This document shows positions 23,896-24,769 of a DNA stretch of 64,000 nucleotides, one piece after another (position 1 is the stretch's first letter; each line of letters opens with the position of its first letter). Location of the stretch: the NCBI GenBank assembly GCA_022794255.1, contig JAAWEL010000089.1:24757-88756 (forward strand), in the 5' to 3' direction. Made by a program: the position numbers and the translations under genes. The notes under the pieces are model-generated. The model saw only the letters and a program-made list of their open reading frames with translations, made no database searches and was not told the DNA's origin. The DNA comes from Lachnospiraceae bacterium (lineage in GTDB: Bacteria > Bacillota > Clostridia > Lachnospirales > Lachnospiraceae).

Positions 23896-23935
23896 TGCAA
23901 CACAATTGGAAATTGTGTTGCACTGAGAGTTACTT
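23896..23935 (+). repeat. left inverted repeat of switch 1
   Basis: TGCAACACAATTGGAAATTGTGTTGCACTGAGAGTTACTT. Confidence 0.95.
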
Positions 23936-24015
23936 AAAATATTAGTAAATATCAGGAAATAATCTTGACAAGGTAGATACAGTCAAATAGCAAAAGAATA
24001 GGAAGATACCTCAAT

Positions 24016-24594
24016 ATGCAAAAAACACATCCTATCAAAGATGCAAAAGACATTCAAAAACTAAAGCAATATTATTTAGACAGACAGCAAATACGGAATT
24101 ATACTCTTATCACTCTTGGGATAAATACTTCACTGCGAATTGGAGATCTACTGCTTTTAAAATGGGAAAATGTTTATGATTTTTGTAATCGATGTTACTA
24201 CAAACATTTGAAAGTCTGTGAACAGAAAACAGGGAAGAATACCCTGATTGCCTTGAACAGAGAATCTTTGTTAGCTCTGAAAAGTTTGAAAGAATCTATA
24301 TCCCCTGTATTAGAAAAAGATTATTTATTTAAGAGCAGAGAAGGAATAAACCGCCCTATCTGCCGTACACAGGCATTCCGCATTATCAAAAAAGCGGCTG
24401 ATTCGCTTCATATCGAAGGAACCATCAGTTGCCATTCTCTCCGGAAAACCTTTGGCTATCATGCCTGGCGAAAGGGGGTTCCACCTGCTGTTATCATGAC
24501 TATTTACAATCATTCCTCTATGGAAGTCACGAAGCGTTACCTGTCCATCGACCAAGATGACAAAGATCAGGTCTTTTTGGAATTAAATCTGTAA
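24016..24594 (+). CDS. small tyrosine recombinase (invertase) of switch 1
   Basis: 192 aa; SLRIGDLLLLKW (Arg I), CHSLRKTFGYHAW (HxxR), YNHSSMEVTKRYLSI (His and Tyr). Confidence 0.93.
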   Translation: MQKTHPIKDAKDIQKLKQYYLDRQQIRNYTLITLGINTSLRIGDLLLLKWENVYDFCNRCYYKHLKVCEQKTGKNTLIALNRESLLALKSLKESISPVLEKDYLFKSREGINRPICRTQAFRIIKKAADSLHIEGTISCHSLRKTFGYHAWRKGVPPAVIMTIYNHSSMEVTKRYLSIDQDDKDQVFLELNL

Positions 24595-24696
24595 AGCAGC
24601 TGTCTGGCCTGAATGAACCATTACTCAGTAAAAAAATTCTTAAGAAAATTCCTCCTGTTTTTCCAGAAAATCTTAACCCTTTCACCAGAAAAGAAC

Positions 24697-24725
24697 TTGC
24701 ATTAAGAAGGAAAGAGTGCTATGAT
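24697..24725 (+). promoter_or_regulatory. switch 1 promoter, currently pointing away from operon A
   Basis: TTGCAT-17 bp-TATGAT; same architecture at 52938-52966. Confidence 0.75.
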
Positions 24726-24729
24726 TACG

Positions 24730-24769
24730 AAGTAACTCTCAGTGCAACACAATTTCCAATTGTGTTGCA
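24730..24769 (-). repeat. right inverted repeat of switch 1
   Basis: Reverse complement identical to 23896-23935 over 40 bp. Confidence 0.95.

Follow-up and report, generated by a model that had tools for sequence, protein, structure and literature searches.

Bacteroides provides the best-known examples of capsule phase variation in which promoter inversion is combined with a NusG paralogue. The classical case is Bacteroides fragilis, in which capsule promoters are inverted by Mpi and are associated with UpxY antiterminators (cited in PMC11892184 and PMC5903667). Recombinases occasionally lie inside their own invertible segment, as Hin does (PMC5903667), and in gut Clostridia the invertons of group 139 have been linked to invertase group 35, a tyrosine recombinase family, with orientation changes measured over passages (PMC11892184). 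LoaP of Bacillus velezensis works through a hairpin in the operon leader (PMC12691694). The literature searched contains no described case of an invertible promoter in Lachnospiraceae or Roseburia, nor does it describe tyrosine recombinases embedded in invertible segments at LoaP capsule loci, although coverage was incomplete and this is weak evidence of absence. The DNA analysed here, a 64,000-nucleotide stretch of contig JAAWEL010000089.1 from a gut bacterium of the family Lachnospiraceae (the window), carries an element, named element 1 (23892-24773), that is very probably a self-contained invertible promoter of the adjacent capsule operon A. In window coordinates, its parts are the following.

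23892-23935, no strand: left inverted-repeat arm of element 1 (perfect part 23896-23935)
23896-23922: core site in the left arm, near-palindromic, 27 bp, TGCAACACAAT-TGGAA-ATTGTGTTGCA
24016-24594, plus strand: tyrosine recombinase, 192 aa, catalytic domain only (Phage_integrase PF00589, E=5e-25)
24630-24696, plus strand: conserved sequence ahead of the promoter, CTTAAGAA ... CCAGAAAATCTTAACC, perhaps the binding site of an activator
24697-24725, plus strand: promoter TTGCAT-17-TATGAT with extended -10 (TGC), conserved in the loaP-linked set
24730-24773, no strand: right inverted-repeat arm of element 1 (perfect part 24730-24769)
24743-24769: core site in the right arm, with identical spacer in inverse orientation

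The perfect 40-bp inverted repeats reported in a preliminary description of this DNA (23896-23935 and 24730-24769) are exact to the base, being reverse complements letter by letter, and if a single mismatch is allowed the arms reach 44 nt. When the window was simulated 50 times with an order-1 Markov model, perfect inverted repeats at the same spacing never exceeded 17 bp, compared with the 40 bp observed. Inside each arm lies a near-palindrome, TGCAACACAAT-n5-ATTGTGTTGCA, which had been missed before and which gives each arm the form of a full core site for a tyrosine recombinase, in which an asymmetric centre is flanked by two binding arms. Rfam at gathering thresholds gave no matches within the window.

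The promoter that was described just inside the right repeat, directed away from the minus-strand capsule genes, also has exact coordinates: the -35 hexamer TTGCAT (24697-24702) is separated by a 17-bp spacer from the -10 hexamer TATGAT (24720-24725), which is directly preceded by TGC, and the promoter ends 4 bp inside the right arm. It points to the right, and the LoaP-like gene and capsule operon run leftward on the minus strand from 23612, so the element is in the OFF orientation. The promoter block is kept in every loaP-linked relative examined; a simple promoter scanner missed the site, which matches 8 of 12 positions where 9 of 12 are required. While OFF, the promoter is directed at the 3' end of operon B. 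The last gene of that operon (24789-25940) stops 15 bp short of the right repeat. No terminator-like site was found in the gap (24774-24788), and transcripts of operon B that run on into element 1 could influence expression of the recombinase or of operon A.

The 192-aa gene between the repeats is a tyrosine recombinase, as had been proposed, and its residues R41, K71, K74, H140, R143, H166 and Y175 are invariant across 83 relatives. Its predicted model has a mean pLDDT (predicted local distance difference test) of 92, and the best Foldseek match is XerA (5hxy, E=2e-9), with Xer/Cre-type catalytic domains resembling it. FimB/FimE had been named earlier as established examples of tyrosine recombinases that invert promoter segments; the enzyme here is not one of that family, scoring 35-37 bits with the FimB/FimE-type models NF007370 and NF007371, whose cut-offs are 221-222. 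It belongs to none of the curated invertase families, scoring far under their cut-offs, and as a PF00589 tyrosine recombinase it is not a member of the Hin-type or Mpi-type serine recombinases.

Element 1 is one of three such elements in the genome, all on one contig and each adjoining a LoaP-like gene. The other two, called element 0 and element 2, comprise the following.

C63:1-1051 (contig start): element 0, spacer CATTC
52176-53013: element 2, whole
52176-52216, no strand: left inverted-repeat arm of element 2, spacer ATGTA
52293-52871, plus strand: recombinase of element 2, 75% identical to that of element 1
52938-52966, plus strand: promoter of element 2, TTGCAA-17-TATGAT, OFF relative to the LoaP-like gene 51204-52013 and operon B
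52973-53013, no strand: right inverted-repeat arm of element 2
51204-52013: LoaP-like gene of operon B, beside element 2

The recombinases of elements 0 and 2 share 75-82% identity with the element 1 enzyme, and the three are mutual closest relatives (97/82 support). Genome-wide, the site pattern is found only in the three elements (seven copies, including an alternative junction) and in one weak match with two mismatches; a control pattern gave none. The arms are nearly constant and the 5-base spacers differ (TGGAA, ATGTA and CATTC in elements 1, 2 and 0). Tyrosine recombinases require a matching overlap for strand exchange, so the three elements should be insulated from each other, and the differing spacers probably confine recombination to within each element despite the near-identical arms.

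Evidence for inversion comes from element 0 and from relatives. The first 98 bases of contig C52 (C52:1-98) are the exact reverse complement of C63:111-208, the left end of the element 0 segment. Past the core, C52 enters a loaP leader, and C63:1-110 matches the reverse complement of the opposite flank, C63:942-1051, without a difference. The two contigs part exactly at the core edge, so that one end of the segment is joined to two different flanks, and both orientations of element 0 probably coexisted in the sequenced population. Among loaP-linked relatives, the promoter points toward loaP (ON) in L011 and L012 and away from it (OFF) in L016, L017, L019 and L021, the call for L017 resting on 49 bp of leader. 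In the wider, more distant family, the loci L022 and L023, which encode a recombinase with 63% identity to the element 1 enzyme, differ by inversion of a 910-bp segment with the recombinase inside, between flanks that are 99.95% identical over 5.8 kb per side. Arm polymorphisms are exchanged between the two, which places the crossover within the core. This segment stands between divergent genes, and its inversion would toggle two operons. L022 and L023 belong to two metagenome-assembled genomes under different genus names, for which the near-identical flanks pose a naming question. Contig ends are also in excess near these recombinases (21 of 80 within 700 bp, against 6.3 expected), as would be expected if assemblies tend to break at invertible segments; part of the excess comes from loci with no detected repeats, however, and no weight is placed on it.

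The double junction of element 0 might be an assembly artefact, in which case this genome would hold no direct evidence of inversion. The assembly is indeed a draft of 90 contigs at 86.8% completeness, and a palindromic core might confuse short-read assembly. The overlap, however, consists of 98 bp of unique segment plus the core and so exceeds the palindrome, both flanks are real sequence that diverges exactly at the core edge, and the independent L022/L023 pair displays a natural inversion, all of which makes an artefact quite improbable. It is also conceivable, though unlikely, that element 1 is a decayed former switch locked OFF, which no longer inverts or does so only through other copies in trans. 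That would agree with the single orientation assembled, with the poor ribosome site of the recombinase and with the decayed single sites in the relatives L007 and L090, but the open reading frame is intact with all catalytic residues, the arms match over 40 bp and the promoter is conserved, and a dead element should drift. Very improbable is the idea of a small integrative or transposable element, with terminal repeats and an integrase, that came to lie upstream of capsule genes by chance. Inverted ends around a lone integrase-family gene do recall one; against it, the module recurs at an equivalent position ahead of loaP, both at the three loci here and in relatives, its ends are full palindromic recombination sites, a conserved outward promoter lies in the segment, and sister species retain the module without the recombinase.

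Some observations weigh against element 1 as a working switch with its own enzyme. It lacks the GGAGG ribosome site that is conserved before several sister recombinases and the TGGCA...TGCCA palindrome upstream of several of them, and expression of its own enzyme may therefore be weak. Its inverted junction is absent from the assembly, in which the element is seen in the OFF orientation only. The promoter activity of the TTGCAT/TATGAT site is deduced from its letters, and the LoaP function of the LoaP-like genes is a presumed one. Some close relatives of the recombinase (L006, L008-L010, L013 and L018) have no flanking repeats, so the enzyme is not always embedded in cis, although the first search for such repeats used ungapped arms with limited reach, and loci scored as lacking them may include missed ones. 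The self-contained inversion switch in OFF orientation that the preliminary description proposed is the best reading and is supported by the anatomy, the element 0 junctions, the ON and OFF relatives and the L022/L023 pair, and inversion of element 1 itself went unobserved. The observation is real and well supported, and the switch is most likely functional at the family level.

The sequence that an inverted promoter would read into is as follows.

23613-23891, minus strand: untranslated leader of operon A, from the switch to the LoaP-like gene, 280 nt
23772-23803, minus strand: candidate recruitment element for the LoaP-like protein, a conserved hairpin of the leader that has an internal bulge (12-pair consensus)
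23758-23769, minus strand: conserved AAAGGGGTTATA motif directly after the hairpin
22836-23612, minus strand: LoaP-like NusG paralogue, first gene of operon A (PF02357 3e-9; NF033641 LoaP 122.3 bits)
22172-22750, minus strand: second, tandem LoaP-like gene of operon A (NF033641 79.6 bits)
126-22126, minus strand: capsule/exopolysaccharide operon A, with sugar transferase, glycosyltransferases, UDP-sugar dehydrogenase and epimerase

The leaders of eight loaP loci share the 12-pair hairpin, in which five pairs show compensatory changes, and AAAGGGGTYATA comes after it. Given that the LoaP of B. velezensis uses a leader hairpin, a like role is plausible here, and the hairpin may plausibly recruit the LoaP-like protein, by analogy with a system from which this one departs in that the loop is not UNCG and the proteins score under the LoaP cut-off. 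NF033641 (LoaP) is the best-matching NCBIfam model for these genes, and its cut-off of 125 bits is not reached by the first genes (122.3 and 105.3) or the second (about 80). Operons A and B each contain another LoaP-like gene after the first (22172-22750 and 50653-51219), and such tandem pairs recur in sister species; the second protein is possibly a partner or an inhibitor, recalling UpxY/UpxZ. PEP (phosphoenolpyruvate) mutase and cytidylyltransferase domains at 126-2135 in operon A suggest a polysaccharide with phosphonate decoration.

In the proposed mechanism, recombinase protomers would occupy both arms of each core and bring the two sites together; strand exchange across the asymmetric bases at the centre would then invert the 0.8-kb segment. 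This would leave the promoter 4 bp inside the left arm and directed at the leader. The ON transcript would start within the inner repeat, with the core folding as a 5' hairpin. Transcription would cross the repeat and the leader of 280 nt to reach the tandem LoaP-like genes and then the capsule operon, along which a LoaP-like protein recruited at the leader hairpin would carry the polymerase. With three such elements, individual cells probably vary in capsule type through phase variation, and such diversity would bear on phage and immune encounters.

Sister species hold a second arrangement. The same-genus genomes G003 and G021 have about six and four tandem LoaP-like pairs, respectively, and one close recombinase each, around which no repeats were seen. 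A site search found 13 and 11 copies in them, mostly paired 212-280 bp apart (controls none); in genomes with such small invertons, the sites were found with a 5-base spacer pattern, and a 4-base spacer gave none. These minimal invertons of about 240-310 bp lie before tandem LoaP-like pairs and have no recombinase inside (L148-L152 and L157-L160, in G003 and G021). Eleven minimal invertons, two of which come from G005, have the promoter cassette of the embedded elements, likewise at the same end, with alignment scores of 82-120, while the opposite half and strand score at most 27. The nine loaP-linked ones in G003/G021 and L162 in G005 are OFF, and in L163 the promoter points toward a divergent LoaP-like gene.

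Downstream of the solitary recombinases of G005 and G022 a decayed site persists, and in L007 and L090 a single decayed palindromic site downstream of a solitary recombinase is likely a relic of an embedded element. The idea that minimal invertons retain the recombinase promoter is suggestive only, with a few of the 11 exceeding shuffles, two of them clearly. Together, the decayed single sites and the traces of recombinase-upstream sequence hint that the trans system arose by loss of embedded copies, and the simplest reading suggested by these sequences is a trans-acting enzyme, derived from embedded ancestors, that serves the minimal invertons. Of the earlier idea of a cis-encoded switch, the gene inside the segment stands, and the enzyme need not act in cis only, given the near-identical arms of the three copies and the sister genomes, which appear to use one recombinase in trans. 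In other Lachnospiraceae, the same recombinase family occurs within repeats between divergent glycosyltransferase-like genes (L020, L045 and L065), and relatives in inverted repeats lie beside csrA-like and flagellin-like genes (L036-L039), suggesting flagellar phase variation by the same family; these gene names come from reading the sequence.

The evidence is about evenly poised on whether this is one capsule-switch lineage with two architectures in one genus, embedded and solitary in trans, that evolved separately as a Bacillota counterpart of Mpi/UpxY. If true, population-level capsule diversity would have evolved convergently in the other large gut phylum from different parts. Cis and trans forms within one genus would allow a direct test of how recombinase control and site insulation evolve, and the recombinase with its sites makes a compact candidate for genetic tools.

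Among described systems, the Salmonella Hin segment likewise holds a recombinase gene and an outward promoter within the inverting segment (PMC5903667), but Hin is a serine invertase that needs Fis and an enhancer and controls flagellin. RecV of Clostridioides difficile is, like the enzyme of element 1, a clostridial tyrosine recombinase that inverts promoter-region segments for surface traits, and it differs in being encoded outside the segments and in having several target sites (PMC5903667). The group 139 invertons with group 35 invertases, compared by description only, are also clostridial and tied to a tyrosine recombinase family, although the two examples with coordinates, at about 250 bp, are too short for a gene and resemble the minimal invertons of the sister species (PMC11892184). 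With B. velezensis LoaP the locus shares a NusG paralogue, a leader hairpin and a long operon, unlike it in the sub-cut-off scores, the non-UNCG loop and the proposed control by DNA inversion, which does not appear in the passages of PMC12691694 consulted. The likeness to Mpi/UpxY lies in an invertible promoter before a long capsule operon, a NusG paralogue as first gene and several loci per genome; yet Mpi belongs to the serine recombinases and serves many sites in trans, whereas here a tyrosine recombinase lies within each element, the host belongs to the Bacillota and the LoaP-like antiterminators come in tandem pairs. Capsule phase variation by promoter inversion is thus known, and what is new is a Bacillota form paired with tandem LoaP-like antiterminators.
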